This document shows positions 24,114-40,450 of a stretch of DNA of 45,945 nucleotides, piece by piece. The DNA lies in assembly GCA_026986005.1 (NCBI GenBank), contig JALSPK010000065.1, positions 1 through 45,945 on the forward strand, written 5' to 3'. A model generated the notes under the pieces. That model ran no database searches, was not told the origin of the DNA, and worked only from the letters and a program-made list of their open reading frames with translations. Source of the stretch: Saprospiraceae bacterium. Its GTDB lineage: Bacteria > Bacteroidota > Bacteroidia > Chitinophagales > Saprospiraceae. Made by a program: the position numbers and the translations under genes. The stretch's first letter is position 1. Each line of letters begins with the position of its first letter.

Positions 24114-27100
24114 TTATTTAATTAATATCATCTTCTTTGTAGCTGTAAAGTCACCTGTTTCAAGTCTGTAATACAGTACTCCTGAAACATTCAAATCAGA
24201 TTTCTTAATTCTTACAGTATTCATTCCTTTCTCAAAATCTTGAGATATCACTTTTAATACTTTTCCTGTTAAGTCGTAGATACTCATTGTACCATTTGAC
24301 TTTTCAGGTAAGTTAAAGCTTATATCAGTATAAGTTGAGAATGGGTTTGGTGTATTTTGATACAACTCAAATGCATTCACATCAGAACCTCTGAAATTCA
24401 ATTTTACATCCATTACTTCCAAATTGCTGTTGTAAGCCTCTTTTGATGTAACGCTTGAGTTGATGCTCAATACATCTTTCAAGTTTGCGTTACTTAAAGC
24501 ATTGAACTTAAGTGTAAATAACGGTTCATTAGTATTTGATATCGTTTCGTTAGCTCTACTCCAACTCATTGTCAACTTACCATTTGTCACTCTAGCTGTA
24601 CCAACGTTAGAATTATCTACATTGATAACACCTGACTCAATTCCTTCAAAACTCATAGCATTTGCATCAAATTGAACAGTATATTGGAATCCTTCGATAT
24701 TATTGAAATCATCCGCATAGACAGGCACTTCAATTTGTCCTGGTTGAATGCTCATATCATCAACAGAAAGTACTAAATCATCAGAACTTCTAGTTTCAAG
24801 TACATCAAATGACATATTCACATCTCCCATCTTAATTCCGTAATAGTTTACGAATACATCATCGGTAGTGTTGATGGCCTCTCCGTTTGGTATTTGATCA
24901 GCCATTGGTTTTGCCGGATTTGAGAATGTATATCCTTTTGGTAAAAACATCCAAGAGTCGCCCAAATCATCAATACTTCCCAAAATCAATTTTCTTAATT
25001 TCAATATATCTGATGCAGTAACCTTATCATCATTTTTAACATTCGCTGCTAAAAATTGGTAAGGACTAGTAAACTTCTTAATTCCTAACAAATGTTTTTG
25101 AATCAATACGATATCTAAAGTAGTAACACCACCTATATCATTTCCATCTTTTTCCAATGTCAAGTTGTAGTTTTTGTCTGAATCCACATCAAATTCAAAT
25201 GCACCGTTTGAGCTTGTATTTTGAGGAGCATATTCGCTGCCTTCCAATTTTACTTTAACATCAGTAATAGGCTCATCATTTGTGGTAGTTACCATACCTG
25301 AAACACTAACCAAACCATCAGGAGCATCACAAGCTTTGTTGTTGTCTTGGAAGTCTATATTTGTCACACAATTATCCTGTGTTATCGTTCCGTCAGGCAA
25401 TATTGCAGTTACCCACATTTCGATTGGCTCAAGATGTCCAACCGCAGGATCAACTGAGTACCAAGATGTATCTGCATTATCATTTCCACAGTAATATGTC
25501 CTCTTCACATCATTAGTGTCAGCACTAAATGAATACTTCAATGGATATCCACATGGATGTGATGATTTTGCACAACACACCTCAATAAGCTGAGCACCAA
25601 CCTCTATCATAGCCCAATCTGCAATACCATCTGTACCTGCATCTAAAGGCATCATCTCTATCACTATATGATCTATACATCTAGGTGTAGGTTTCTTACA
25701 GTTTTTGATAGTAAAGAATTTATCACAAACTGCTCTATTACCACACTGATCCCATACTGTCCATACTATTCTGTGTTTTCCTATTGGATAATCTCCGCTG
25801 GCTGAAGCTGTCGCTCCTGAAATTATTGAAGAATTTCCAGGGAATAATTTTGAGTCCTTTATTAATATGTCGAAAGAGCTTGTAGCAGTATTGTATGAGT
25901 ATACTTGATATCTCCATTTTAAGTTTTCATCCAAAGTACATCCATCATGTGCTGACATTGATAACTCAATGTATCCTTTTTCACATTCCGTATCGTAAGT
26001 ACATGTTTCTTTGTCCTCACAAGTAGTAGTAAATACAGGAGCTTCTGTTTCACTTATCATTATCACTTGATCCCATCCCCATGTTAAAAATCTACCATCT
26101 TTATCTTTTTGACACCAATCCATTACCGTCCAATGTCTGATTATCTTGAAACATACTGATTCAGCATCAAAATTGTCATCATTGAAATGGAATACATCAT
26201 CTTTGTAGTTTGCTGCTACCAAATCACAGTTGTCTTCTCTTAGTACAGGCCATCCTGTTATATCAGGACCGTAAGCAGCTTCGTTAGCACAACCTGTAAC
26301 AGTAACATCTATAGGCCATGTAATATCTTTTTTATTAAAAGGATTAGGATTATAGAAGTGTATTATTTGAGTACAATGTACCGTACCGTTAGGATCAGAT
26401 ACAGTGAATGTTCTAACAATATTGCCATTATTACATTGATCTCTATTATCGGTGTAACCCTCATCCATAGTTAGATTACAATTATCTCTTGACCATCCGT
26501 CTTTGAATTTAAAATCCTTTACCGCCGTATTACAACTCCAATCTTGAAGACCGGTATCATAATAAGCAAGTGAACCATATTCTCCATTAATTGTATGTGT
26601 TTCTCTATTGTCATATCCTTGTACTACCGTACCAAAAGCTTCTGCTAGTCCTGTCTTATCAAGTACAAATGGGTACTCACAATCTACACATATATTTGGA
26701 GGACAAGTGATTTGTGGAGGCAATTTGTCTTGTACTGTTACTTGCACCATACAGTCATTGTATCTTCCTCCTTTATCCCAAACTCTCATTATCACTGTAA
26801 TAGGATTATCAGCGATATCATCACAACAGAATGTAACATAATCAAAGAAATGTTTGTTATTAAGATCAACATGTCCTTCACAATCTATTTTATTATCCAT
26901 TCTTCTTACTCCAAAATTATCAATTGAACAGTCATCATATGAACCACTATCAAATGATGGTGCAAATATTTGAGCTTCACCATCGTATGTCAATGAAACA
27001 GTTGTAAATTGTTGACAAACCGCTACAGGAGGAGTATTGTCCTCCACAGTTACAGTCCATTCACACTCTGTTTTGTTTCCGCAATTGTCATAAGCAGTAT

Positions 27101-28421
27101 AAGTTACGGTATTCACTCCCAAAGGAAGATCTCTAGTTATAGCATGCTTTGTTTCATTAGTATCTGCAAACATTACAGGATGTCCCAAATCATTCATGAC
27201 AGCAATAGTATAAACTGTATATGAGTGACACTCATCAGTTATCGTTGGCACAGGGAATGTATACCTAGCTCCACAATCAAGTGCTCCTGCACTTGTTGGA
27301 TCAAAGTTTGCAATCGTATTTGTAGTTATTGTTTCATTATCCGGACAAACTATTACAGGTGGTATTGTATCTACGACCTCTATTGTTTGGAAATTGGGGA
27401 AAGTAAGTAACCATGGATAATTACATGTTTGTTCCGTTACAGACCAAGTCCTCAATACTTTTTCGATACAAGTAGGGCATGTATTAATAGTAATGTCTAC
27501 ATATGTAGCAGCTACTTTACATGCAAAATTGCAATTGTTGTCTAAAACAACAGTATCTAGGAAATCAGCATGAGCTGTTTCAAAAGCAGTAGGATAATTA
27601 TCAGGATATACCAAAGAAGGCCATCCGGTTTTGTTTGGATCGAAATCTCCATTTGAATCTTTATAATTATCTGCATCTTTACAAGATATTGCATTACCAT
27701 GTGCCTGTACTAAATCATCCGGCCATCTTACCATAGTACTAAGTTCAAACTGATTTAGACCACTAACTCTAATAACAACACTACAGGTATCAGACTGATT
27801 GCCCGATTGATCAATAGCAATAAAACTTCTGTCTATTATTCTGTTTACAAGAGGATCTATTGTTGGATCAGAACAATCATTGTCCCATATCTTGTCATCT
27901 ATCTTAACTATATTAAGAAGGTTTGCCGGTGTACAGTTATCAGATGCAACCGGTACGAATGCTTCTTGATCATAACACTTTATATCTATAGTATCCGTTG
28001 GACAATCAAATACCGGAGCCATCTTGTCTGAAACATCAAATTGTACCATTGCACTATTCAATAAGTTGTGAGCAGGGTCATGAGCTTCTATAAATACCCA
28101 ATATGGACCACCAATATATGTGTAATCTAATACCACACTCTGACTCATCGGTATCAATACTGTAGTCATATCTGCCGCTCTTACTTCAAATTCATAATGA
28201 TCAGCAACAGTACACTTTGCACCGTCATCTGTTAAGAACATTTGCTGCATAAGCATTGCTTCACAATTGTCATTACTGAGAATAACGTGAACGAAATCCT
28301 CTGCATTAAGTTGACAACCTTGTGCACTTAACTGTGCAACATTAAAAAATGTGAACAAAAAGGCTACTGTTATAAGCCAGTTCTTCACTAATCTGGGTTT
28401 TGTAAAATTCGTTTTCTTCAT
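24114..28421 (-). CDS. Giant T9SS-secreted surface protein 2 with dockerin-like and cohesin-like modules
   Basis: I prefer ATG 28421 (MKKTNFTKPRLVKNW...) to the in-frame ATG at 28430; either gives ~1435 residues. A signal peptide ends near LSAQG. Residues ~40-1020 are cysteine-rich HYR-like Ig-fold units with recurring phrases (DKMAPVFDCP, DTIPPVIVCP, DNTPPVAVC, DKLPPQITCP). In numbering from 28430, a carboxypeptidase-regulatory-like fold (~1040-1100) follows, then a dockerin-like segment (TLDIVLIQKHLLG and KVTASDILKLRKLILG, ~1100-1155) and a cohesin-like domain (~1217-1347, IQPGQIEVPVYADDFNN). Last comes a T9SS type A sorting domain (YQNTPNPFSTYTDI...TKKMILIK). The last steps mirror the giant at 35822. 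It is expected outside the outer membrane as an adhesin or matrix scaffold. Confidence 0.88.
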   Translation of the reverse strand: MKKTNFTKPRLVKNWLITVAFLFTFFNVAQLSAQGCQLNAEDFVHVILSNDNCEAMLMQQMFLTDDGAKCTVADHYEFEVRAADMTTVLIPMSQSVVLDYTYIGGPYWVFIEAHDPAHNLLNSAMVQFDVSDKMAPVFDCPTDTIDIKCYDQEAFVPVASDNCTPANLLNIVKIDDKIWDNDCSDPTIDPLVNRIIDRSFIAIDQSGNQSDTCSVVIRVSGLNQFELSTMVRWPDDLVQAHGNAISCKDADNYKDSNGDFDPNKTGWPSLVYPDNYPTAFETAHADFLDTVVLDNNCNFACKVAATYVDITINTCPTCIEKVLRTWSVTEQTCNYPWLLTFPNFQTIEVVDTIPPVIVCPDNETITTNTIANFDPTSAGALDCGARYTFPVPTITDECHSYTVYTIAVMNDLGHPVMFADTNETKHAITRDLPLGVNTVTYTAYDNCGNKTECEWTVTVEDNTPPVAVCQQFTTVSLTYDGEAQIFAPSFDSGSYDDCSIDNFGVRRMDNKIDCEGHVDLNNKHFFDYVTFCCDDIADNPITVIMRVWDKGGRYNDCMVQVTVQDKLPPQITCPPNICVDCEYPFVLDKTGLAEAFGTVVQGYDNRETHTINGEYGSLAYYDTGLQDWSCNTAVKDFKFKDGWSRDNCNLTMDEGYTDNRDQCNNGNIVRTFTVSDPNGTVHCTQIIHFYNPNPFNKKDITWPIDVTVTGCANEAAYGPDITGWPVLREDNCDLVAANYKDDVFHFNDDNFDAESVCFKIIRHWTVMDWCQKDKDGRFLTWGWDQVIMISETEAPVFTTTCEDKETCTYDTECEKGYIELSMSAHDGCTLDENLKWRYQVYSYNTATSSFDILIKDSKLFPGNSSIISGATASASGDYPIGKHRIVWTVWDQCGNRAVCDKFFTIKNCKKPTPRCIDHIVIEMMPLDAGTDGIADWAMIEVGAQLIEVCCAKSSHPCGYPLKYSFSADTNDVKRTYYCGNDNADTSWYSVDPAVGHLEPIEMWVTAILPDGTITQDNCVTNIDFQDNNKACDAPDGLVSVSGMVTTTNDEPITDVKVKLEGSEYAPQNTSSNGAFEFDVDSDKNYNLTLEKDGNDIGGVTTLDIVLIQKHLLGIKKFTSPYQFLAANVKNDDKVTASDILKLRKLILGSIDDLGDSWMFLPKGYTFSNPAKPMADQIPNGEAINTTDDVFVNYYGIKMGDVNMSFDVLETRSSDDLVLSVDDMSIQPGQIEVPVYADDFNNIEGFQYTVQFDANAMSFEGIESGVINVDNSNVGTARVTNGKLTMSWSRANETISNTNEPLFTLKFNALSNANLKDVLSINSSVTSKEAYNSNLEVMDVKLNFRGSDVNAFELYQNTPNPFSTYTDISFNLPEKSNGTMSIYDLTGKVLKVISQDFEKGMNTVRIKKSDLNVSGVLYYRLETGDFTATKKMILIK

Positions 28422-29240
28422 GAGAACCATTGTTTTAAGTTAAAAAATACTGTTATGAGGGATGCAAATTCACCAATAACCATTGGCATACAAATCCCAA
28501 ATAATTCATTTCAAATTTTTTGAGTTAAATAATTAAAATCCAAGCAATGGCAAAACCATTACCTTACTATCATCATACTACATTCCAAATTAATGAAACC
28601 ATTTTGGTTGGCTGAACTGATTCTATGTCATGTAAAAATACATCAAGCCCCCCGCTGTACATCAGGGAAACACATTCTAAATTATATACTCATTCAGACC
28701 GTCATCTGTCAAAGTATAAACCTAGAACAATACTCAATAAAATATCTCCACATAACACTCACCTCAATTCAAAATATGTAGTTTTCTTAGTTTGCAATTC
28801 TATACGTTGATAAATCAATGGATACAATTATATATCTACATTGACATCAACTTATATCAAACTAGTCGTTAATAATTTTTTTAGCAGAATATGTATATAA
28901 GTACCCATTTCAAAGACTACTCAATTTCTTACTAAAAAACTATTTTATAATATCACTAATTTGATATAACAATACTCTAATATCATTAAATCACACAGGT
29001 TGGAAACATTGGCTTAAAATATAAATAGAATCAATCTTCTCAGTTATCAATTCAAATATTTATTCCAATAATGTATAGTTTTCTTATTATCACAATGCAA
29101 ATATATAACTAATATTTATATGTGAAGTTAAATCAATCTAGGTATATTTTAGTTTAGTAGATTTTGCAATTTATATTCGCGTGTATTTCTTTGTGTTACG
29201 AAATATAAATTTTTATAATTTATTGAGATTTTATTTAAAT
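28422..29240. other. Long AT-rich leader region of giant surface protein 2
   Basis: This 819-bp stretch holds no convincing gene; two ~60-codon plus-strand frames (28593-28810) have no recognisable features. CCAT/ATGG-centred inverted repeats cluster near the gene start, for example CCAAT-aacc-ATTGG at 28473-28486 and AACCA-ttt-TGGTT near 28596. A -7-like box (TATATTTG on minus) lies at 29098-29105; if used it would give a leader of about 670 nt. No terminator was seen after the UspA gene. Confidence 0.35.
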
Positions 29241-30041
29241 TTATTTTTTATGATAAACCAAAAGAGGAATTGAAGCGCTAATAGCTAATTTTTTTGTGAA
29301 GCTTTTGTGAAATAATTTGTCCCAAAACTTTCTGTGTTTTGTTGCCATAATCAATAAGTCTATATTCTTATCTTTTATACATTTATTTATATCTTTAGTA
29401 AACGAACCTGTTCTTATACTGCTAGTAGTATAACTTACTTTTTTAATATCAGGCAATTTAGAAAAATAATCATTTTTGTTAGTCGCATTAGATATATGAA
29501 CAAAATGCAATGTAGAATTATTTCTCAATGCAAAGTCCACAACACTTTTTAAGACTTCTTCTTCTAATTTTTTTATATTAAAAGCATACAGAACGTTTTG
29601 CAGAGGTTTAAAGTTAATATTTCCGGGTATTAATAAAACGGGACATTTTGATTTTGATGCAACACCGGTAGATATTCCTCCGAAAAAATTATTGATTATA
29701 TTATTGGAGCCGGTCGAACCCATGACTATTATGTCAAAATCGTTTGACATTTTTACGATTGTTTCAATAGTGAATCCGATTTCAAGTGAAGAATCAAGCT
29801 CAATATTACATTCCTCCGAGAGAGATAATATTGATAATAGCAATTGATTCATATTATCTTTTTTTACAGCATGTAATCCTAAAGAAGTATCTACTATCTC
29901 GTGTTGAATCGTATCAATCGACGGCTGATATACATGAATTATAGTAAAAGAACTTTGTGTGTTTTTATAAAGATTTAGAGCATAAACTATTGCGTTTTTT
30001 GATACTTTTGAAAAATCCGTAGGTATTAGTACTCTTCTCAT
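29241..30041 (-). CDS. Universal stress protein, tandem UspA domains
   Basis: The 266-residue cytoplasmic protein consists of two UspA-type alpha/beta domains (residues ~1-140 and ~148-266). The first begins RRVLIPTDFSKVSKNAIVYA and has IIVMGSTGSNNIINNFFGGI followed by STGVASKSKCPVLLIPG, which fits the ATP-binding G-x2-G-x9-G-S/T loop. The second has DLLIMATKHRKFWDKLFHKS and LAISASIPLLVYHKK, lacks the glycine-rich loop, and is probably a non-binding partner domain. Tandem Usp proteins are common in Bacteroidota and respond to growth arrest or redox stress. The gene seems monocistronic, with a -7 box at 30091-30098. Confidence 0.88.
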   Translation of the reverse strand: MRRVLIPTDFSKVSKNAIVYALNLYKNTQSSFTIIHVYQPSIDTIQHEIVDTSLGLHAVKKDNMNQLLLSILSLSEECNIELDSSLEIGFTIETIVKMSNDFDIIVMGSTGSNNIINNFFGGISTGVASKSKCPVLLIPGNINFKPLQNVLYAFNIKKLEEEVLKSVVDFALRNNSTLHFVHISNATNKNDYFSKLPDIKKVSYTTSSIRTGSFTKDINKCIKDKNIDLLIMATKHRKFWDKLFHKSFTKKLAISASIPLLVYHKK

Positions 30042-30090
30042 AGTTTATTGTTTTTCTTTTTACAATTGATACATTTAAAAAAACCAAATC

Positions 30091-30098
30091 CAAATCTA
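30091..30098 (-). promoter_or_regulatory. -7 promoter box of the UspA gene
   Basis: The minus strand reads TAGATTTG, a perfect TAnnTTTG, 50 bp before ATG 30041. No -33 partner is evident. Confidence 0.45.
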
Positions 30099-30169
30099 TA
30101 AAAAAAATAAGATTTTAGGTATTATTTCGAAATAAATTGAAAAATAATAATCAAGTAGGCACATTATTA

Positions 30170-30206
30170 TAGTGTCTGCCCATAAAATCATTAAAATTTA
30201 AAAATA
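30170..30206 (-). repeat. Truncated palindromic element, right-end fragment in inverse orientation
   Basis: TAGTGTCTGCCCATAAAATC followed by ATTAAAATTTAAAAATA matches the reverse complement of the right ends of copies A and B with about five differences over 37 bp. The rest of the element is not recognisable. It lies in the upstream region of the secreted metalloprotease. Confidence 0.6.
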
Positions 30207-30345
30207 AAATAGTTTTACGTATACATATTTAAAAAAATATCGTTATTCTTTAATAATGACTACTAAATTATTTTAAGTGGTCTGTAAATAATTTGTATAA
30301 TATGGATTTAACTATTTAATAAATCCTAATAAATGTATTTGTATT

Positions 30346-33300
30346 ATGAAAAAAATCTTACTTGTATTTTTTGCTATTGTTGCTATTAATTTATCTGCTC
30401 AAGACTTTTGGCGAACCGTTGATGAAAGCTCGATTATTTTGGATAGAGATGCAGACCGAGGAGTAATCCCAATAGATTATGTTGCGTCACATTTAAACAT
30501 TAATAAATTGGTTAATTATTTAAAAGATGCACCGATTCAATTTAATAAAGAAAGTAAATCTATTCCTTTATATATACCAATGCCAGATGGTAGCAATATG
30601 TTATTTGATGTGGTTAAGTCCCCGGTTATGATGAAAAAGTTAGCTGAAAAATACCCAAACATAACTTCATACAAGGGCATTGCACACAATAATAAAAAGG
30701 TAAATATAAGATTTAATATAGGTGCAAATGGATTTTATGCCTCGATATATGACAAAAGAGGAAACATTTATATAGATCCCTATGCTGAAGGTATCAAAGA
30801 TTATTATATAAGTTATTATACGAGTAATTATAAAGTTGATATAAGTGATATTAATTTGACCTGTGGTCTTGAAGAAGATGATATTGTCTTTAGAGATAGC
30901 ACCAATTTAAGCGACATCAATTTTCCGGATGAACTTCTTGAATTTCGAGAAGCATCGCAATGTGATTCAGTAAAACAATACAATTACAGGCTGGCATTAT
31001 CATGTACAGGGGAATGGGGACAAAGGCATGGAGGTACTAAGGAAAAAGCTCTTTCAGATATGGTCACTTCAGTAAATAGAATAAACCAAATATACGAAAA
31101 TGAATTTGCTATTCATCTCAATTTAATAAATAATAACGATACTTTGATTTGGTTGGATCCTGATACTGATCCTTTTGACAACCCTAAAACAGGAGGTGCT
31201 CTTTTGGGTGAAAATTTTGATGCGGTAAACAATAGAATAGCGATGAATTCTTATGACATAGGGCATATATTCACAAATAGTTGTAATGATGTCGGTGGAA
31301 TAGCTCGACTGGGAGCTGTATGTCAGTCTTTTAAAGCTATGGGCGTAACTTGTCATTATTCCAATAATCTAGATTATATAGTTACTAATGTCACATGCCA
31401 CGAAATGGGTCACCAATTTAGTGCGGTTCATACATTTAATAACTGTAATGGAAATGAATCAGGTTCCGGTTTTGAACCCGGGGGAGGTACAACAATAATG
31501 GCATACTGTGGATTGTGTGGACCAAATAATGTTGATTACAAATGTTTAGAGACGTTTCACTCTTTTAGTGTACAGCAAATAAAATATTATTCAAGAGAGG
31601 GAGGAGGTAAAAAATGTGCAGAAAAAATAGCTTCAGATAATACCGCACCCGAAGTTAGTATCAATTATTCTAATGGATTTTATATACCTATTCAAACCCC
31701 TTTTGTATTAGAAGGGAGTGCCGATGATTGTGAAGGAGACGAATTATCATACTCATGGGAGCAAATGGATGTAGGGCCTCAATCTCCTATAGGAAATCCA
31801 ATTGATAATGCTCCAATATTTACAGCGAGAGAAGTTTCTTCTAATCCTGTCAGGTATTTTCCAAATTTATATGACTTACTATACAATCAAAGTAATAATT
31901 CAGAACTGTTGCCATCATATGATAGAGATTTAACTTTTAGATTTATTGCCAGAGACAACCATAAAGATGCCGGAGGTACAGATTGGGCAGATGTCAGTTT
32001 TAAAGCAGATGAAACCTCAGGCCCATTCTTAGTAAAATACCCTAATAATTTTTTGACGTTCAGAGTAGGGGAACCGGTAGAAGTCAAATGGGATGTTGCA
32101 AACACAGATAATGACCTTGTAAATTGTCAAAAAGTAGATGTGTTTTTATCTTTGGACCAGGGATATACTTATCCATACACTCTCAAATACCAAACACCAA
32201 ACGATGGCTCGGAAATAGTTTATATCCCTGACTCAATAACTTCAAAGGCAAGGATTATGGTGAAGGCTTCTAATAATATTTTTCTTGATGTATGTAACTA
32301 CAATCTGAAAATTAGAGAAAGGGAAGATACAAGTTTTCTCTTTGACCTTGATGAAATATCAGGCAGAATCTGCTTACCATATTCTCCGGAGGTAAAAATA
32401 ACTACACGAGGTTTTAATGGTTTTGAAGACTCAATAAGATTTGAAATAATTGGATTGCCCGAAAACACAACATATCAAATAAATCCTAATATTGTTAAGC
32501 CTGGAGAATCGACAAATATCACTTTTGATTTTAGTGATGTGGCAGAAGATGGGTATTATGAAGCATTTGTATTAGGAATTTCGACAAAAGGAGACACAGT
32601 AAAGAGACCTATTGATTGGGATTTTTATTCCAATACTTACAAAAATGTTGAAATAGTCAGCCCTGAAGTAGGAAGCACAGGTCAATTTCAAAATCCTGTT
32701 TTCAGATGGAGAAAAGGTAATGCTTACGATTATGTAAACTTTTATTTATCGTCTAACCCATCGTTTCCCGAAGGAGAAACTTTAGTACGAACTTACTTAA
32801 CCGATACATTTTACCAACCAACAGAATTATTAGAGTACTCAACATTATACTACTGGAAATTGGAGTATGGTAATATTTGCGGTATAATAAATCCTGATAC
32901 CATTTATACTTTTTCTACTTTTGCGACAGATTGCAAGAAGTACAATTCGGAAGAAATTCCTAGAATAATAAATTCAAAAGAGGTTACTCATTCTTCTATT
33001 TTCATTGATGAGGATATAGAGATAACTGATGTAACCCCTAAAATGACTGGAAATCACAAATGGTTTAAAGAGATTTCTGCTTCCTTGGTTGCTCCTAGTA
33101 ACGACACTATATTACTTTTTAGAAACAGGTCTTTTAATTATCAAGGAGCTTTTGACATGAGTTTTGATGATCAAGCTTATTATAAAGTTAAATCCCCACC
33201 AAAAGGAGTATTTAAACCTGATTCACCTCTTTCTAAACTCAATGGGAAAAATGGAAAAGGTGAATGGAAATTATTGGTTAAAGATAATAAATCTCAGCAA

Positions 33301-33948
33301 AGTGGTACTTTAAAGCAATTTTCACTTATTGTTTGTTCAAAAGTAGAATTGATAAACCCGGTATTAATAAACAATAACCTACTGAAAGTCCCTTATAACA
33401 GACATTGGGCGATAAGTTCCGGCGATTTGAAGGTAACCGATGGTAATAATACGGCAAGTGAATTAACGTATACAGTAGTGAAGGAACCTTTTTATTGCTC
33501 ATTATTTAAAGACAATCAACAATTATTTATAGGAGATCAATTCACACAATCTGATATTGATAACGGCAAGATTAACCTCCTTTATCCGGGTAATGAAAAG
33601 GTTTTTGACAAATTTTATTTTACAGTTATTGATGGCGAAGGTGGTGCTATTGGTATAACTTCATTCAATATAGAAAGTGATAGTAATGTCAAAGTTGATG
33701 AAGTATTTGAAAAAACGGTACGACTATTTCCAAACCCAACGAGTAATGTAATAAGCATAAGTATAGACCAAGTCGGGAAATTTAATCTTGAGGTATATGA
33801 CTTAAGAGGAAGAAAGATTGTTTCAAAAATCATAAAAGAAGGGATGAATAAATTGGATTTGAGCGGGTTGAATAATGGTGTTTATGCAGTAAAAATATAC
33901 AATGATTATTACAATTATGTAGGTAAAGTTATCAAAGAAGATTACTAA
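30346..33948 (+). CDS. Secreted reprolysin-type zinc metalloprotease with P domain and T9SS sorting domain
   Basis: The 1200-residue protein has a signal peptide (MKKILLVFFAIVAINLSAQ) and a propeptide (~20-200). Its reprolysin-like catalytic domain (~205-430) has HEMGHQFSAVH (H352, E353, H356, H362), the extended metzincin zinc motif. A downstream Met in TTIMAYCG is the probable Met-turn. Ig/FN3-like domains follow (~430-860). Next is a proprotein-convertase P-like domain (~861-1000, with KWFKEISASLVAPSNDTILL and GKGEWKLLVKDN). A cadherin/CSPG-like repeat (~1000-1110) and a T9SS type A sorting domain (~1123-1200, VRLFPNPTSN...) complete it. This is a cell-surface or released endopeptidase, perhaps for protein foraging or surface processing (inference). 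The active site looks intact. Confidence 0.9.
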   Translation: MKKILLVFFAIVAINLSAQDFWRTVDESSIILDRDADRGVIPIDYVASHLNINKLVNYLKDAPIQFNKESKSIPLYIPMPDGSNMLFDVVKSPVMMKKLAEKYPNITSYKGIAHNNKKVNIRFNIGANGFYASIYDKRGNIYIDPYAEGIKDYYISYYTSNYKVDISDINLTCGLEEDDIVFRDSTNLSDINFPDELLEFREASQCDSVKQYNYRLALSCTGEWGQRHGGTKEKALSDMVTSVNRINQIYENEFAIHLNLINNNDTLIWLDPDTDPFDNPKTGGALLGENFDAVNNRIAMNSYDIGHIFTNSCNDVGGIARLGAVCQSFKAMGVTCHYSNNLDYIVTNVTCHEMGHQFSAVHTFNNCNGNESGSGFEPGGGTTIMAYCGLCGPNNVDYKCLETFHSFSVQQIKYYSREGGGKKCAEKIASDNTAPEVSINYSNGFYIPIQTPFVLEGSADDCEGDELSYSWEQMDVGPQSPIGNPIDNAPIFTAREVSSNPVRYFPNLYDLLYNQSNNSELLPSYDRDLTFRFIARDNHKDAGGTDWADVSFKADETSGPFLVKYPNNFLTFRVGEPVEVKWDVANTDNDLVNCQKVDVFLSLDQGYTYPYTLKYQTPNDGSEIVYIPDSITSKARIMVKASNNIFLDVCNYNLKIREREDTSFLFDLDEISGRICLPYSPEVKITTRGFNGFEDSIRFEIIGLPENTTYQINPNIVKPGESTNITFDFSDVAEDGYYEAFVLGISTKGDTVKRPIDWDFYSNTYKNVEIVSPEVGSTGQFQNPVFRWRKGNAYDYVNFYLSSNPSFPEGETLVRTYLTDTFYQPTELLEYSTLYYWKLEYGNICGIINPDTIYTFSTFATDCKKYNSEEIPRIINSKEVTHSSIFIDEDIEITDVTPKMTGNHKWFKEISASLVAPSNDTILLFRNRSFNYQGAFDMSFDDQAYYKVKSPPKGVFKPDSPLSKLNGKNGKGEWKLLVKDNKSQQSGTLKQFSLIVCSKVELINPVLINNNLLKVPYNRHWAISSGDLKVTDGNNTASELTYTVVKEPFYCSLFKDNQQLFIGDQFTQSDIDNGKINLLYPGNEKVFDKFYFTVIDGEGGAIGITSFNIESDSNVKVDEVFEKTVRLFPNPTSNVISISIDQVGKFNLEVYDLRGRKIVSKIIKEGMNKLDLSGLNNGVYAVKIYNDYYNYVGKVIKEDY

Positions 33949-33953
33949 TTATA

Positions 33954-34020
33954 AGAAAGATAAAAATCTCATCGAAAATCATTATTTTTCAGAAATCAAG
34001 CACTTTATAGACAGACACTA
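33954..34020 (-). repeat. Truncated palindromic element, left-half fragment in inverse orientation
   Basis: Starting 6 bp after the protease stop, this 67-bp segment matches the reverse complement of the left part of copy A (AGAAAGAtAAAAATCTCATC through GCACTTTATAGACAGACACT) at roughly 90 per cent by eye. It ends with an intact terminus, CACTA. It is followed by AA and then TAGTGACTGTCAAC, a second terminus remnant like the one after copy B. Confidence 0.7.
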
Positions 34021-34038
34021 AATAGTGACTGTCAACGA

Positions 34039-34064
34039 AAAAGGCAGTATCACTACTGCCTTTT
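34039..34064. terminator. Bidirectional Rho-independent terminator
   Basis: AAAAGGCAGTA, loop TCAC, TACTGCCTTTT: an 11-bp perfect stem with A and T runs on both sides. It lies between the convergent metalloprotease and GT2 genes and ends 2 bp before the GT2 stop codon. Confidence 0.85.
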
Positions 34065-34066
34065 AT

Positions 34067-35203
34067 TTATTTTACTATTCTTGATTTCCATTGGTATTTG
34101 TTTTTGAATAGGCTCAGCACGCCTATAAATACAATGTATATAGGATATTTCAATAATGCAATAAACATTTCTATAGCGCTAATCTTTTCTTCAAAAAAGG
34201 AAGCTATCGATTTTATAAAAATAGAATCGACAATCAATTTAAATAACACCAACGATATTGCGAAATATAATTGATCGGTTTTCAAAAAGAGAATTGCAAT
34301 TATATTAGAGAGGATTAACAAGTTTGTAACAAATATCAATATCACAATATATTTCATATTTGGGCTTTCGTATGCTTTTGTTTTGGTAGCCCACCTCAAT
34401 CTCTGATTTATAAATTCTTTAATTGTACTTTCCGGATAAGTATAAACGATAGCGTCTTTATTTTTTAAAAAGCCAATAGAATTAGGATGATCCTTTGCTA
34501 TTTTTTGTACTAAAAACATATCGTCACCGGAAGCATAATTTGAATTAGATTTTGTGCTTATGCCTTTTCTATAACTCATATTTGCTCCGTTAGCCATATA
34601 GTGCAGCCCTGAATTGATACCGGCACAAGTAACTCCCATTGTGGCTAAAAAATCATATTTTTGAAACTCTTCTAAACTGCTATTACCTGATTTGAATAAT
34701 ACAGGACCTGTGATGAAATTAATTTTATCGCTTGAGTATTTATTAGCGTGAGATAAAATCCATTTTTCCCCGACTATTGTATCTGCATCTGTTTGCAATA
34801 TAATGTCACCGATAGCTTTTGAAACAGCAAATTCAATAGCGGTTTTTTTATAGTTAATAATCTTATTATCTCCGATAAAATCCTTGAGTTTAAAAAAGTT
34901 GAAGTTTTCAAAATTTATAGCCTTTAGTATTTCTATTGAATTGTCTGTAGAGAAGTCATCGATGTATAGTACTTCAAATTGTGATTTTGGATAATCATTT
35001 GAAATAATGCTATCGACACAACTCATCAGATTTTTGGCTTCATTTCTTCCGACAATGACTACAGATATGGAGGGAGCGTTTTTTATAGGGACTACCCCCC
35101 TATCCTGTTTTGTTTTTGTCCAATGAAACCAATAAAAAACCATCAATGAAATATATAGGAATAGGATAGCGAGCGATGCAAAGTGAAGTATCTGCACAAT
35201 CAT
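34067..35203 (-). CDS. Membrane glycosyltransferase family 2
   Basis: The protein has 378 residues. An N-terminal membrane helix (~8-27) is followed by a GT-A domain: SISVVIVGRNEAKNLMSCVD, VLYIDDFSTDNS, GDIILQTDADTIV (the DxD-containing motif) and the acceptor-side segment GDDMFL with QRLRWATK, the Q/RxxRW motif of processive or lipid-linked GT2 enzymes. The C-terminal ~90 residues form three or four membrane helices. It is similar in layout to exopolysaccharide or lipid glycosyltransferases of Bacteroidota. It follows the small membrane protein by 11 bp and ends at a strong terminator, so the two are co-transcribed. The product is unknown. Confidence 0.85.
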   Translation of the reverse strand: MIVQILHFASLAILFLYISLMVFYWFHWTKTKQDRGVVPIKNAPSISVVIVGRNEAKNLMSCVDSIISNDYPKSQFEVLYIDDFSTDNSIEILKAINFENFNFFKLKDFIGDNKIINYKKTAIEFAVSKAIGDIILQTDADTIVGEKWILSHANKYSSDKINFITGPVLFKSGNSSLEEFQKYDFLATMGVTCAGINSGLHYMANGANMSYRKGISTKSNSNYASGDDMFLVQKIAKDHPNSIGFLKNKDAIVYTYPESTIKEFINQRLRWATKTKAYESPNMKYIVILIFVTNLLILSNIIAILFLKTDQLYFAISLVLFKLIVDSIFIKSIASFFEEKISAIEMFIALLKYPIYIVFIGVLSLFKNKYQWKSRIVK

Positions 35204-35214
35204 GATATCAAAAA

Positions 35215-35652
35215 TTACTCAAATAGATCTTCATAATCGTTGACTTTAACTTTTTTCTTAAATTCGTCAAGATTTAATATTTCCGCATCAGAATCATCTA
35301 CCTCTTCATATTCAATATATTTTTTCTTGCTTTTTCTTTTAGTTTTAAAATTCATAAAAGCATTAAAAAAAAGAGCAGCCGATACAAAAGGAAATCCAAT
35401 CACAGTAAATATAACCGCAAGAATTCCCAACACGGTTCTGTATCGAAGCAATTCATAAATAACTATCCCGAATTTCATCAAAACTCTGTAATCTAAGATT
35501 GCAGCAAGAAGAAGGAATACCGGCGCTAGTATTAAGAATAATTTATAAATGCTTTGAATGATGATATATATAAGAAAAACCACTACAAAAACCAGAATAA
35601 GTCCCAGCCAGCTATTCGATTTATTATATGATTTGAATTGAAAATTATTCAT
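35215..35652 (-). CDS. Small membrane protein of unknown function
   Basis: This 145-residue protein has a short polar N-terminus and then three hydrophobic segments (~16-34, ~37-52, ~72-98). A basic stretch (KTKRKSKKKYIEY) and an acidic cytoplasmic tail (EEVDDSDAEILNLDEF ... YEDLFE) follow. I do not recognise the family. Its position 11 bp before a GT2 glycosyltransferase and a -7 box 19 bp before its start suggest a dedicated accessory protein, perhaps a membrane partner of the enzyme (inference). Confidence 0.7.
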   Translation of the reverse strand: MNNFQFKSYNKSNSWLGLILVFVVVFLIYIIIQSIYKLFLILAPVFLLLAAILDYRVLMKFGIVIYELLRYRTVLGILAVIFTVIGFPFVSAALFFNAFMNFKTKRKSKKKYIEYEEVDDSDAEILNLDEFKKKVKVNDYEDLFE

Positions 35653-35671
35653 ATAGTTAAGATATTTGAAA

Positions 35672-35679
35672 CAAATTTA
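35672..35679 (-). promoter_or_regulatory. -7 promoter box of the small membrane protein-GT2 operon
   Basis: The minus strand reads TAAATTTG, a perfect TAnnTTTG, 19 bp before ATG 35652, implying a short leader. Confidence 0.45.
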
Positions 35680-35752
35680 TAAATTAAACTGCAAATAATC
35701 AATTTTAAATATACAAAAACTTAAAAACTTTCGATAAAAGTGCAATTTAGAG

Positions 35753-35784
35753 AAAAAGCCCCTCTTCTTTGCAGAAGAGAGGCT
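35753..35784 (-). terminator. Rho-independent terminator of giant surface protein 3
   Basis: On the minus strand AGCCTCTCTTC, a short loop, GAAGAGGGGCT, then TTTTT. The flanking ATCCCAAAAAC phrase is shared with the terminator of the giant at 24114. Confidence 0.8.
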
Positions 35785-35821
35785 ATCCCAAAAACCGATT
35801 TTATTCGGCTACAATGGAAGA

Positions 35822-38800
35822 TTATTTAATCATAATCATCTTCCTGGTAGCAGTGTAATCTCCGGATTCTAATCTGTAATACAGTACACCTACCGTATTA
35901 AGCTCCTTGTTGGATATTTTAAGGTTGTTATATCCAGCATTCCCGTATTCTTTGTAAGTTTTTACAACTTTTCCCGTAACATCGTAAATAGTCATTGTAT
36001 AGTCTGATTCTTTTGGTAAATCAAAACCAATTACTGTTTCATTTGTAAATGGATTTGGCTCATTCTGATACAATGTGTAAACATTATTTTCATTTCTAAA
36101 TTCAAGTGATATCGAATTGACATCAAGCGCTGAACTTGTATAAGCTTCTGACCTTGCTACGTCATCATTAATATTAATGATTCCTTTAAGGCTATTTTGA
36201 GAATGTGATTTGATAGTTAAAGTAAATAAGACTTCTCCATCTTTAACACTAACCCCTTGTGCATTGTCCCAACTTAACACCATATTGTTGTTTACCAAAT
36301 TAACATTATCTCTATCTACATTAATCGCACCAGGATTAATCTCTTCAATATCTGAGTTGGAAATGTTCATAGTAAATTGTAAGCCGTATACTTCATTAAA
36401 GTCTTTTGCATAAAACGGCACTTCTACTGTTTCATTTTCGGATGCTTTAATATTGTCAACAACTAGCTTCACACTATTTGCACTTCTGGTTTCCAATTTA
36501 TTTGCACTTCCATTAATATCTCCAATCTTAATAGCTATAAAGTCCAAATTATTGATACTAGCATTATTTACTGAAATCTGTTTTTTACCTGCTTTATCTA
36601 ATTCAAGATAAGACTTACTAGGATTATTGAATTGATAATCAGACGAAATAGCAACCCAAGAGTTATTTTGGAAGTCATTATTAGTTCCAAGTATCAATTT
36701 TCTCAACTGCAATATATCCGAAGCGGATATCGAACCACTCTTATTAACATCTGCAGCCATCAAGTAATAAGGGTTAGTAATATATTTAATTCCTAACAGA
36801 TGCTTTTGGATCAATACGATGTCTAGGGTAGTAACGCCATTCAAGTACTCAACATCTCTAGACCCACTAACTGTATAATTATCATCTTCCAAACTAAATG
36901 TGAACACACCATTCTCATTAGTCATCACATTTTTTTCATTTTCAATATTGGAAGCCGTCATTTTCATTCCTTCAAAAAACTCCGAATCACCTTTCATTTT
37001 AACTGTACCTGACACAAGTGGATGTGGATCAGTTGCACAGTGATTGAAATTAATTTCTACACTTGCAAAATCATAATTTCCATCATCACAAGAGTTGTTG
37101 TTAGCAAACACATCCCAAACATATACTTGAATAGTTTTTGTGTAATTCGCATTTTGAACATAATCACATAGATATCTTCTTTGTGAAGTGTGACTTGCCG
37201 CAATCCAAGCATCGGCATCACCGTCTGCATATTTAGCAAATGTACTTATCAAACCTGTTGCAGGGTCAAAGAAATTCATTCCATATTGACTTAATTGATG
37301 TTCCCATTTCAATGGCTCTACATCAAGTTTAGGCAAGAAAGGAGAGAATGTGAAGTACAATCCGGTCTTAGGCGTACAGTTATCATATGATGATAAACAT
37401 CCGTTTTCACAACCACCTTTATCAAATGACCTCGCTGTTAACTCTACCATACCATTTGCCATTAATGCTGTCGCCAAATCTACTAATAGAGGCGTAGGTG
37501 GTTTCTTATCTGCAACTGTAAAGAATTGATTTTTACTTGTCGCATTACCACAACCATCTCCTACAGTCCAAGTAACTCTATAATTTCCAACAGGTAAACC
37601 TTCCAATAATACCAAGTAAGCATCTACAGCTCCGTCAAGATTATCTTTGTATTTATTACCTTTAACACCCTGTGCAGGCTTAGGAGTATAATTGTATGAA
37701 TATTGGATTGTTTCCCATGTATCCATATTTGTAACAATATATTTCCAGTTAAATTTCTGTGACACATTACATGAATCTGATGCATGTGCAAATATCTTCA
37801 AGTCGTAAGCATAACAATCAGTAGATGCAAAACACTGATCTGTAACATCAATAACAGGTGTTTCTGAATCTGTTACCATAAGGATTTGAGTATATCTATA
37901 GTATCCATCTTCTACCAAATTCTTGCAAGCTAATTTTCTTCCGTATATTTCATCTACATTGAATTCCGCTCCAGTATTTGCTTCATATACACACCAGTCT
38001 ACAACAGCCCATTCTCTTACTATTTTGTAACATGCGCCATCTACAAATCTAAATGTATCTTCTTTAACAATTTCTGCTGTTACAACATTACAAGGATTTT
38101 CGTTCCATGTAGGCTCTCCACCATCATTCAATTCATTAGAACAATCTGCTCGAACATCTTTAGGGAATACTATTGAACAAGGATCAAAAGGCTCCGTTGA
38201 CTCAACTGTAATCTTTTGTCTACATGTTGTACTTTTACTGCATCCGGTAGCAGTCCATGTTCTTGTTATCTTTGCTCCACATACTCCTAAATTTCTTTTG
38301 TCAGTATATGTTAAATCATAACCGCATACACTGATTACATTTGGTAATAATTTAGTATTGACATCAGGATCCAAACTCTCCTCGCATGATACAGTAACAG
38401 GAGGACAGTCCAATACCGGAGGAATTTTACACTCAAGGTTAACTACACTCCAACAATCATTGTAGTGCCCTACTAAATCTCCATTTCCAGTCATTCTATT
38501 AGGATTGACCGGTCCATTACCGGGATCTTGGTCAAATACTCTTAATGATACCATTATTCCGCTGTTTACATCATCACAACAGAAGAAAACTTCATCATCA
38601 TACCATACATCTATAGCTTGGGTATTGGGCTTGTCGTCTCCATTGAGATCAGAACAACCTCCATCATATTCCAAATCATCATTTACTCTTAACACCTTAA
38701 AGTATACTGGATTACAGTTATCAAATGATCCTGAATCAAAACTATGTGCAAATACTTTTGCATTTCCCATTGCTGTAATACTAACTTGCTTGTGTTGCTC

Positions 38801-40450
38801 ACAAACAGGAATCGGAGGAACTCCGTCAAATACGGTCACGTTTACGCAATAAACATCTTCATTTCCACAATCATCTTTTACATGATAACAAACTTTATAA
38901 TCTCCTAATGGTAAATTATTGACAAACCAATTTTCACCGGCATCAACAACGCCATTATTATTTGTATCTCCTACTACTATTCCTTCTGTTGATGTAACCC
39001 ACCATTGAGGATTTGCATCACAGTTATCATTTAGGTGATGTAACGGAGGTATTGGTACATTTGCATTACATTCGTATGCTTTGGTTTTAGCTGTTATATC
39101 GCTTGGATCCAAAAATGTAGGTGCTGTAGTATCAGTAATTCTTATTATTTGTGTTTTTTCATATACTATACCTGTACAATCATCAACTAAAGTCCAATAT
39201 CTTAATATTTTTGTGCCACAAGGTACTCCATCAGCCTTTGTATATACTCTATCTGTATAGAATACTTCAATGGTTCCACATGCATTGTTATATCCACTAG
39301 GGTAACCTGTGTAACTTGGGTGTGGATTTCCTGCTACGTCAGTTGCATAGTCGCTACTACATTCAATCATATCATGATTTCCAGGCAGACCATCCCAATT
39401 TTTTGGCCATTCCAAATTGTTAATATCTACTCCTTTGAAAAAATACTCTGAGGTACATGATGCCGTCATACCTCCATTATCTGTAGCCGTATATTCTCTT
39501 TTAACTAAGTATGTACCACAATCAGGTCCATCAGTTACTGTTTCTGTCCATTTCAATGTAGCCTGACAGTTATCATTAGCAGTTGCTAAAGGGAAGTTGT
39601 AATTTACACCCTCTTCAAAACAACCGTCATAAACACATTTGGAGTTGTAAAAAGCTTCAGCCATTGTGACTTCTGCTCCTGCAGGTGCAGCGATACTGAA
39701 ATTGTAATTACCAACATAATCAGCATCCAAATCAGATAACACAACATAATATGTAGTAGCTGTTTGTAATGTTGCTGTACCATCAAATGCAACTTGATTT
39801 GCTTCATCAAATTGACCAACCAAATGAGAAGTAACATCTGCACATGAACTTGAAGGATCAAGTTCAGCATCTAAAATTCCAATCAACAACTTATTGTTAT
39901 CATCTGTACCCGTGAAAGTATAAGTTCCGGGTGATGAAACATTAATTGCATAAACATCATAGTAATGGTTACCGTCCTCCATTCCTAGTGCTGCAGCTAT
40001 CAAATCACAATCTGCAGGTAATTCCGCGGATTCATCTGTCAATGAAAATGATTCTGCAAAAGGGCTGGCAAAGATAGTGCCTTGTGGTAATGCGCCACCT
40101 TCCGGGCACTCACATTCTATCGTAGGAGGCATTTTGTCCCTCACGACAATATTACCCCAGCAATTATTGCCATTTGTTTTATCAAACACTCCAACGATAT
40201 AGTCACCGGGGCTTACCGGATTAGCTACCGTTCCCGGAGAATTAATCGGATTTGGCATAACATTGTAAATTCTAACTTCGTAGTCACTGTAATCTGCGTA
40301 GGTTCCCTCTAGAACCATATCAGGATCTATCAATGCATCACATTGATCATCAACTGAAACTTGTATATTCTTATTACAAGCCAATGGACCTTGCCCGATG
40401 GCAAAGTTTACGGTCATTGCAAAAGAAAATAATAATAATAATTTTTTCAT
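35822..40450 (-). CDS. Giant T9SS-secreted surface protein 3 with dockerin-like and cohesin-like modules
   Basis: The protein has 1542 residues, with a signal peptide MKKLLLLFSFAMTVNFAIGQ. Residues ~25-1140 are cysteine-rich HYR-like Ig units (DKMPPTIECEC, DGVPPIPVCEQ and CKIPPVLDCP) with one pre-peptidase-like beta domain (~130-270). Then come a carboxypeptidase-regulatory-like fold (~1143-1205) and a dockerin-like segment (TLDIVLIQKHLLG at ~1206, SGSISASDILQLRKLILG at ~1250, FIAIKIGDINGSA at ~1302). A cohesin-like domain (~1327-1457) and a T9SS type A sorting domain (~1457-1542, YQNEPNPFTNET...TRKMIMIK) follow. It aligns collinearly with the truncated giant at 1-2641 in its N-terminal half and with the giant at 24114 in its C-terminal half. 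It uses the conserved leader box at 40457-40470. It is probably an abundant surface adhesin. Confidence 0.9.
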   Translation of the reverse strand: MKKLLLLFSFAMTVNFAIGQGPLACNKNIQVSVDDQCDALIDPDMVLEGTYADYSDYEVRIYNVMPNPINSPGTVANPVSPGDYIVGVFDKTNGNNCWGNIVVRDKMPPTIECECPEGGALPQGTIFASPFAESFSLTDESAELPADCDLIAAALGMEDGNHYYDVYAINVSSPGTYTFTGTDDNNKLLIGILDAELDPSSSCADVTSHLVGQFDEANQVAFDGTATLQTATTYYVVLSDLDADYVGNYNFSIAAPAGAEVTMAEAFYNSKCVYDGCFEEGVNYNFPLATANDNCQATLKWTETVTDGPDCGTYLVKREYTATDNGGMTASCTSEYFFKGVDINNLEWPKNWDGLPGNHDMIECSSDYATDVAGNPHPSYTGYPSGYNNACGTIEVFYTDRVYTKADGVPCGTKILRYWTLVDDCTGIVYEKTQIIRITDTTAPTFLDPSDITAKTKAYECNANVPIPPLHHLNDNCDANPQWWVTSTEGIVVGDTNNNGVVDAGENWFVNNLPLGDYKVCYHVKDDCGNEDVYCVNVTVFDGVPPIPVCEQHKQVSITAMGNAKVFAHSFDSGSFDNCNPVYFKVLRVNDDLEYDGGCSDLNGDDKPNTQAIDVWYDDEVFFCCDDVNSGIMVSLRVFDQDPGNGPVNPNRMTGNGDLVGHYNDCWSVVNLECKIPPVLDCPPVTVSCEESLDPDVNTKLLPNVISVCGYDLTYTDKRNLGVCGAKITRTWTATGCSKSTTCRQKITVESTEPFDPCSIVFPKDVRADCSNELNDGGEPTWNENPCNVVTAEIVKEDTFRFVDGACYKIVREWAVVDWCVYEANTGAEFNVDEIYGRKLACKNLVEDGYYRYTQILMVTDSETPVIDVTDQCFASTDCYAYDLKIFAHASDSCNVSQKFNWKYIVTNMDTWETIQYSYNYTPKPAQGVKGNKYKDNLDGAVDAYLVLLEGLPVGNYRVTWTVGDGCGNATSKNQFFTVADKKPPTPLLVDLATALMANGMVELTARSFDKGGCENGCLSSYDNCTPKTGLYFTFSPFLPKLDVEPLKWEHQLSQYGMNFFDPATGLISTFAKYADGDADAWIAASHTSQRRYLCDYVQNANYTKTIQVYVWDVFANNNSCDDGNYDFASVEINFNHCATDPHPLVSGTVKMKGDSEFFEGMKMTASNIENEKNVMTNENGVFTFSLEDDNYTVSGSRDVEYLNGVTTLDIVLIQKHLLGIKYITNPYYLMAADVNKSGSISASDILQLRKLILGTNNDFQNNSWVAISSDYQFNNPSKSYLELDKAGKKQISVNNASINNLDFIAIKIGDINGSANKLETRSANSVKLVVDNIKASENETVEVPFYAKDFNEVYGLQFTMNISNSDIEEINPGAINVDRDNVNLVNNNMVLSWDNAQGVSVKDGEVLFTLTIKSHSQNSLKGIININDDVARSEAYTSSALDVNSISLEFRNENNVYTLYQNEPNPFTNETVIGFDLPKESDYTMTIYDVTGKVVKTYKEYGNAGYNNLKISNKELNTVGVLYYRLESGDYTATRKMIMIK

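Follow-up and report, generated by a model that had tools for sequence, protein, structure and literature searches.

A dockerin nested in a regulatory-like sandwich may dock on the cohesin of its own chain in secreted giants of Saprospiraceae

A contig of 45,945 nucleotides from a Saprospiraceae bacterium (JALSPK010000065.1, assembly GCA_026986005.1; hereafter the window) encodes on its minus strand two giant proteins that are cargo of the type IX secretion system (T9SS) with a type A sorting domain. Giant 2 (1438 residues, 24114..28430) and its paralogue giant 3 (1542 residues, 35822..40450), both called from the open reading frame (ORF) list, Pfam and NCBIfam, end in the order CarboxypepD_reg-like sandwich, dockerin, cohesin and T9SS sorting domain. 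That both chains end in this order, which we call the cassette, is confirmed and lies far beyond chance. Here we report that in related chains the dockerin diverges together with the dockerin-binding face of the cohesin that follows it, and that it does so chain by chain within genomes. On balance we lean, if only slightly, towards a self-docked tail, in which the dockerin would plug into the cohesin of its own chain (in cis).

Giant 2 was matched above the Pfam cut-offs by Cohesin (PF00963, residues 1221-1335, 42.3 bits, cut-off 24.1) and Por_Secre_tail (1361-1435, 29.1 bits, cut-off 27), with the NCBIfam sorting-domain model TIGR04183 at 41.6 (cut-off 23); CarboxypepD_reg (1042-1098, 24.3 bits) stayed under its cut-off of 32.3, and Dockerin_1 (1095-1150, 22.3 bits) just under 22.9, the latter scoring 28.4 in a genome-wide search. 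Giant 3 was matched by Dockerin_1 (PF00404, 28.2 bits, cut-off 22.9) and TIGR04183 (32.2, cut-off 23), with Por_Secre_tail at 26.5 bits (cut-off 27) and CarboxypepD_reg at 19.9 bits, again under its cut-off. The giant 3 cohesin (36089..36475), placed from sequence by alignment with its relatives, gave no match at E ≤ 1 in the Pfam protein scan and 21 bits (E 7.4e-4, under the cut-off of 24.1) in a six-frame search. The sorting domains lie at 24117..24383 in giant 2 and 35825..36088 in giant 3, and 12 chosen tails from the same genome can be aligned end to end over the whole order. A first-pass annotation of this DNA, made by a model from the letters alone, had given these ORF positions and a tail order with dockerin-like, cohesin-like and T9SS domains in both giants, and the ORF coordinates, profile matches and structural model bear it out. 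The Pfam scan found no catalytic domain in giants 2 and 3, and as neither appears to be a dockerin-bearing carbohydrate-active enzyme, the two giants would not qualify as a cellulosome.

Structure prediction, the check proposed in the first-pass annotation, was run for the giant 2 tail and for the part of giant 3 before the cohesin. The AlphaFold2 model of the last 400 residues of giant 2 (from an alignment of 31 rows; tail residue numbers refer to this stretch) has a predicted local distance difference test score (pLDDT) of 88.5 and a predicted template modelling score (pTM) of 0.72, a pTM above what we would expect for freely hinged domains. The giant 3 part, taken alone, scored 93.0 and 0.85. 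Besides a cohesin fold in giant 2, the models place three dockerin helices at 66-77, 85-91 and 101-112 in both giants, and the giant 3 model runs through five strands, three helices, three further strands and one helix. All 81 residues of the transthyretin (TTR)-like domain 5aq0_A aligned to residues 2..167 of the giant 3 model (root-mean-square deviation (rmsd) 1.9, Z 7.7), and the TTR-like carboxypeptidase domain 3mn8_A (Z 7.9) aligned with strands on both flanks of the dockerin, a Z below 8 being middling by the tool's own scale. With no more than about 55 residues ahead of the dockerin, the remainder of an 81-residue match must lie beyond it, which makes the dockerin an insertion. The CarboxypepD_reg match, too, ends at about the dockerin start: it reaches position 60 of the 82-position profile in giant 2 and position 54 in giant 3.

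In the giant 3 model, then, the dockerin (36665..36856) is nested inside a CarboxypepD_reg/TTR-like sandwich (first part 36857..37018, second part 36524..36664), and does not follow the regulatory-like fold as originally annotated. The corresponding parts of giant 2 would be a first sandwich part at tail residues 2-56 (25149..25313, with boundaries taken from strands and the giant 3 model), the dockerin at 57-120 (24957..25148) and a second part at 121-167 (24816..24956) with the SW.F and KMGDVN segments, placed by the model, by couplings to the dockerin and by analogy with giant 3. Among single pairs, I72-V166 and L89-L125 couple the dockerin strongly to the second sandwich part, and L54-Y158 strongly couples the two parts of the sandwich. 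As a class, pairs between the two parts are not enriched (5 of the top 100 with 6.6 expected, 5 of the top 50 with 3.3 expected), so the nesting rests on the model and a few strong pairs. A point against it is that removing the dockerin and joining the sandwich halves did not raise the CarboxypepD_reg score in Pfam in five sequences (joined versus original bits 29.7 vs 29.4, 23.4 vs 24.7, 16.6 vs 16.2, 32.7 vs 33.5 and 26.9 vs 26.8). Cohesins and sorting domains made up the structural matches listed for giant 2, with no dockerin or CarboxypepD_reg row among them, and those listed for giant 3 held no dockerin row; the dockerin thus carries no structural superposition, which is not counter-evidence.

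The giant 2 cohesin (tail residues 179-311, 24384..24782; face residues Q211, N237, S251, E293 and Y295) is modelled, at tail residues 180-312, as a nine-stranded jelly roll that matches 1anu (CipA cohesin-2; Z 11.8, rmsd 2.5 over 121 residues) and 1ohz_A (Z 11.6). In solved complexes, dockerin helices 1 and 3 bind the 8-3-6-5 sheet of the cohesin (PMC8063739). We assigned these strands by their order in the model, without superposed coordinates. Conservation reaches ≥75% at 13 cohesin positions across 200 distinct cassettes, eight of the 13 on strands assigned to this sheet (Gly209, Gln211 and Thr213 on β3, Asn237 on β5, Ser251 and Trp252 on β6, Glu293 and Tyr295 on β8) and five off it. HMMER aligned the GxQ segment of β3 with the same motif of the type II cohesin pair 3l8q. 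Gln37 of the cohesin is bonded to the dockerin in one type II complex (PMC8063739). Ser251 is kept in 0.86 and Tyr295 in 0.90 of the cassettes. Ser251 is kept in 0.44 of 221 modules of the cohesin arrays described below and in 0.22 of 32 single-cohesin proteins, and Tyr295 is absent from the commonest residues in the 89 array modules and 17 single-cohesin proteins aligned at that position; the two residues are thus best kept where the chain has a dockerin. The jelly-roll binding face, on which the first-pass annotation had made docking depend, is thus present in the giant 2 model and in the conserved positions.

The calcium loops survive in part. Of 211 distinct related dockerins, 203 have a canonical loop 2. 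Loop 1 is canonical in 10 and degenerate in 201; Leu prevails at its position 5, and 210 have Asp at its position 12. Giant 2 has lost the position-5 ligand of loop 1 and carries Lys at position 3 of its non-canonical loop 2 (tail residues 92-103, 25008..25043), and giant 3 has a good, canonical loop 2 (36716..36751). As a full type I dockerin has two canonical loops, we call the module dockerin-like with one; the concern that it might lack Ca-binding loops altogether is half justified, the family having one good loop instead of two and that of giant 2 being imperfect. Both F-hand repeats align with 4uyp_B in a single stretch (27.6 bits over profile positions 66-121). This dockerin of an adaptor scaffoldin, whose structure was determined together with a ScaC cohesin, ties with 4dh2_B at a whole-sequence score of 28.5, the two being the best-scoring solved dockerins. 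A second type of dockerin, with two canonical-looking, widely spaced Ca loops, occurs in the same genome (L043:4419-6929, G000:C202); a cohesin-like stretch after it was recognised by eye only, Pfam giving the dockerin and no cohesin.

We compared mean-field couplings over all pairs with those of shuffled alignments. The dockerin positions that we take, from the literature, to be those of recognition (10, 11, 14, 15, 18, 19 and 22, numbered with the first Ca ligand as the starting point) had been fixed before the block test, at a time when columns 66-68 and 75 had already been seen leading the coupling list. Between the helix 1 recognition positions and the cohesin face the top-5 score was 1.105, against 0.627 ± 0.091 in shuffles (z 5.2), with z 2.1 for the opposite sheet; other dockerin positions gave top-5 z of 1.1 and 0.2, and on this score only the recognition-by-face block stood out. 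The fifth and tenth dockerin-cohesin couplings were somewhat above shuffle (0.98 vs 0.79 and 0.80 vs 0.70).

Thr66, in helix 1, is missing from 17 of the 200 cassettes, and Ser251 is also lost in 13 of these 17 chains, compared with 14 of the 183 that have Thr66. Stratified by divergence, loss of Thr66 was associated with loss of S251 (z 5.2), E293 (4.4), Y295 (3.3), N237 (3.0) and G209 (2.1), and z stayed below 1 for W252, F267 and G193. When cohesins were re-paired among genome-mates in the 10 genomes represented in the set by both intact and altered dockerins, 25 face losses accompanied Thr66 loss in the actual chains against 12.1 ± 3.7 in permuted ones (p 5e-5); the non-face (p 0.44) and sandwich (p 0.75) controls gave no such excess. 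Thr66 and the face residues had been picked from the same data, which counts against this result, and the test was repeated without choice of columns: over 170 chains from 52 genomes, dockerin divergence tracked face divergence (partial r 0.42, p 0.0005), with 0.04 for dockerin and back sheet, 0.12 for sandwich and face and 0.16 for sandwich and back sheet. Seven of 18 conserved dockerin positions reached z of at least 3.0 with the face (I72, T66, A91, Y86, R108, N62 and L77), T66 and R108 being the least tied to the non-face (z 0.5 and 0.1). Between neighbours on the tree, four face residues were lost more in the member without Thr66 (sign tests p 0.002 to 0.012); we set this test against the nearest Thr66-keeping neighbour aside as support, eight or more members sharing few neighbours. 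Cassettes that lack a cohesin are too few to show whether they lose Thr66: four ORFs have an intact 3′ end and no more than two cohesin columns aligned, and three of them (L240, L044, L116) lost it and one (L127) kept it. The sequence statistics are what would be expected if dockerin and cohesin recognise each other through their classical surfaces.

Coupling that is specific to the chain within genomes points to docking within one chain, since a promiscuous lattice among near-identical interfaces predicts none. In the arrangement we favour, the last ~300 residues before the sorting domain would form one self-docked unit. A type-I-like dockerin, inserted between strands of the TTR/CarboxypepD_reg-like sandwich, would use the end of loop 1 together with helix 1 (Thr66) to dock on the cohesin some 15 residues downstream, at its 8-3-6-5 face; helix 3 (Arg108) might help. 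The result would be a clasp, stiff and probably dependent on Ca, that lies next to the T9SS sorting domain and presents the N-terminal domains of the giant at the cell surface. The computations show the modules, the nesting in a predicted model, the conserved face and a coupling between dockerin and face that is specific to the chain; that this coupling means physical docking, and docking in cis, is inferred, as are the Ca dependence and stiffness of the clasp. Packing within the own chain, which the first-pass annotation had set against its proposal of binding between chains, is now the favoured reading.

Several observations weigh against self-docking. The best single dockerin-cohesin coupling equals shuffle (1.10, null mean 1.09, maximum 1.39), and the top 100 couplings include 6 dockerin-cohesin pairs where pair numbers alone predict 18.2, so that there is no enrichment. 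Helix 3 couples to the face no better than to the back (top-5 z 2.6 and 2.5), and the means of all six blocks exceed shuffle (z 3.8 to 14.2), from which it follows that ancestry inflates every block. Strand β5, and with it Asn237, is our own assignment, the model having no DSSP strand there; two other face residues, Q211 (z 1.8) and T213 (z 1.0), are barely associated with Thr66 loss; and I72, with a non-face z of 1.8, outscores Thr66 with the face. One ORF (L127:3-1652) keeps Thr66 and contains no cohesin. The linker varies little in length (33-34 residues in 137 of 198), but the spacing from the cohesin to the C-terminal sorting domain varies little as well, and we rejected linker length as a sign of cis docking because it does not discriminate. 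Finally, a chain that left a network of binding in trans and lost both halves could mimic chain-specific coupling. For this reason, and because the chains without Thr66 are few (17, with 11 parsimony changes) and often on long branches, our confidence in cis docking is no higher.

An unlikely alternative, though the best placed of the others, is the lattice first proposed for these proteins, in which the dockerin of one giant binds the cohesin of another, the same or paralogous, so that chains would join head to tail into polymers or cross-link into a lattice on the surface. Paralogues have very similar recognition segments and face residues, which makes binding in trans chemically possible; the set includes 13 distinct full cassettes from this one genome; and a cis interface can also domain-swap. 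Chain-specific coupling is unexpected, however, if every dockerin meets every cohesin. Of the original claim, dockerin-cohesin binding within one type of protein agrees with the sequence statistics, whereas the lattice between chains is the part less supported, given the within-genome permutation.

The cassette is ordinary in its parts, unusual in its arrangement, real and family-wide. Described at first as a trait of two paralogues, it extends well beyond them: a sandwich-dockerin profile, with a query that excluded the cohesin, gives 15 matches in the same genome and is matched in 134 of the 150 genomes of the family, along with 23 of 149 in a draw from the order, 18 of these 23 within Saprospiraceae. 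Searches of the same genome at E ≤ 0.1 also yielded 14 matches for cohesin and 19 for dockerin, weak or spurious ones included, and 24 named loci were found in Saprospiraceae and other Bacteroidetes metagenome-assembled genomes. Two cassettes occur together in a 2048-residue protein with extra cohesins (L037:3548-9691, G000:C27) and again in L055:14412-17237, and outside the family cohesins flank the sandwich-dockerin on both sides in one chain (L188:4532-6709 and G257:C58). Among the literature matches listed, a set of titles and abstract beginnings with subscription papers mostly outside its scope, we found no description of this cassette or of the cohesin arrays.

Those arrays, which lie outside the window, are a further candidate partner. 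A tandem-cohesin profile matches 132 of the 150 family genomes, 121 of them strongly (below 1e-35). Cassette and array occur together in 131 genomes, the cassette only in 3 (G007, G132 and G142), the array profile only in 1 (G090) and neither in 15; counting array matches below 1e-35, the numbers are 121, 13, 0 and 16. Presence and absence thus agree in 146 of 150 genomes, with co-occurrence p values, uncorrected for ancestry, of 7.9e-17 over all matches (Fisher) and 5.0e-14 over strict ones. In the order draw 22 genomes match both profiles, 1 the cassette only and 2 the array profile only, the array profile outside the family mostly matching single cohesins. We collected 48 array ORFs without a dockerin, of 641-2904 residues (some truncated where the contig stops), in which our own profile finds 2-10 cohesins; Pfam found SprB repeats and a CHU_C (type B) signal in all five scanned. 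Among 40 stretches chosen for carrying a genome's best listed array match, an array ORF was present in 38. Where another ORF lies downstream of the array, the next one is PorP/SprF in 27 of 28 loci; an ORF of ~265 residues with a single cohesin precedes the array in 21 of 33 (with a type A signal in both of the two scanned), and a cassette giant adjoins the array in 12 of 32. PorP-like barrels may serve to hold type B proteins (PMC9143113), so the arrays are probably displayed at the surface. The cluster looks like a candidate T9SS-secreted anchoring scaffoldin.

The unit of ~265-residue single-cohesin protein, array and PorP/SprF (L203-L242) recurs in many genera of the family. In the genome of the window itself, L034:1952-10672 (G000:C174) holds a cassette giant, then a 1034-residue SprB-like protein with SprB repeats, CHU_C and three cohesins by our profile (one strong in Pfam), then PorP/SprF. 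Two cysteines of the second array module are invariant in a nine-row alignment (A4) and might form a disulfide; the window cohesins, unlike that module, have no cysteine. G142 is an exception to the co-occurrence.

It is distinctly improbable, in our estimate, that the giants' dockerins dock on such arrays, held by PorP/SprF barrels as a cellulosome-like, T9SS-secreted surface scaffold. In favour of this are the co-occurrence and the neighbourhoods just described, the retention by array modules of Q211 (0.73 of 221) and E293 (0.88 of the 98 aligned there), and the match across both repeats to an adaptor-scaffoldin dockerin. Against it, the residues that track the dockerin, Ser251 and Tyr295, are often missing or replaced, so that array cohesins are not obvious partners of cassette dockerins, and we lowered this candidate as main partner for that reason; moreover, G142 has 14 sandwich-dockerin matches and G007 and G132 one cassette each with no array match, and ten further cassette genomes match the array profile weakly. 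Just as doubtful, to us, is a broader version in which Saprospiraceae would build a non-cellulolytic, cellulosome-like T9SS surface assembly, with PorP/SprF-anchored SprB-type arrays of 2-10 cohesins and giant adhesin-like proteins whose inserted dockerin switches between closed (own cohesin) and open (array or other giant) states. Least likely of all is that the two modules serve as fixed structural spacers, have ceased to dock and co-diverge only because some cassettes evolve fast, for, although loop 1 is degenerate, giant 2's loop 2 is imperfect too and couplings of all blocks are inflated, the face is conserved and polar and the coupling is specific to it and not to the back sheet.

Known systems share parts of this design. 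The type I dockerin of Acetivibrio cellulolyticus ScaB (4uyp_B, solved with the third ScaC cohesin) has the same order of three helices with both repeats matched, but the cassette dockerin differs in its degenerate loop 1, its insertion in a sandwich and its likely partner in the same chain. Non-cellulosomal cohesins of A. fulgidus (2xdh) and C. perfringens (2jh2, and GH84C 2w1n) share the fold of the giant 2 cohesin (Z 10.3-11.0) in different hosts and architectures; non-cellulosomal cohesins and dockerins were reportedly surveyed in 2009. The X-dockerin dyads of C. thermocellum CipB and CipA (5m0y_B and 5g5d_B, Foldseek ranks 2 and 14 for the giant 3 part, both weak, with E 1.6e-3 and 9.7e-3 and rmsd 12) also pack a β-sandwich with a dockerin. 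In the dyad the dockerin comes after the X module, whereas in the cassette sandwich strands lie on both sides of it. An X module is described as neighbouring the dockerin, and CipA as bearing nine cohesins of type I together with a type II dockerin whose partners are other proteins (PMC5141474). Like CipA and ScaA scaffoldins, the cassette has cohesin and dockerin on one chain, but with one of each, apparently matching each other. The arrays, for their part, are like Flavobacterium SprB/SprF, a type B C-terminal-domain protein with a PorP-like anchor (PMC9143113), in the SprB repeats and CHU_C of those scanned and in the adjacent PorP/SprF; they differ in carrying 2-10 cohesins, and gliding is not implied.

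Other genes of the window were identified with Pfam and NCBIfam. Between the giants, at 30346-33948 (+), lies an M12B reprolysin-like metalloprotease with a P-domain, a cadherin-like domain and a T9SS signal. At 3493-6408 (-) a GH3 N-terminal domain is fused with a beta-lactamase-family domain, and at 41596-44304 (+) a 902-residue polysaccharide-export-like protein is encoded, whose best NCBIfam model, under its cut-off, matches six stretches.

Cohesin-dockerin pairs are best known for holding different proteins together in cellulosomes. A pair built into one chain, with the dockerin nested, would, if true, mean that the same interface is used as an internal clasp throughout the family. The self-docked tail is a better reading of giants 2 and 3 than the lattice. 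The cohesin-array cluster is the bolder lead, its conserved neighbourhood of cohesin arrays and T9SS anchors making the idea of a scaffold of the Bacteroidota's own directly testable.

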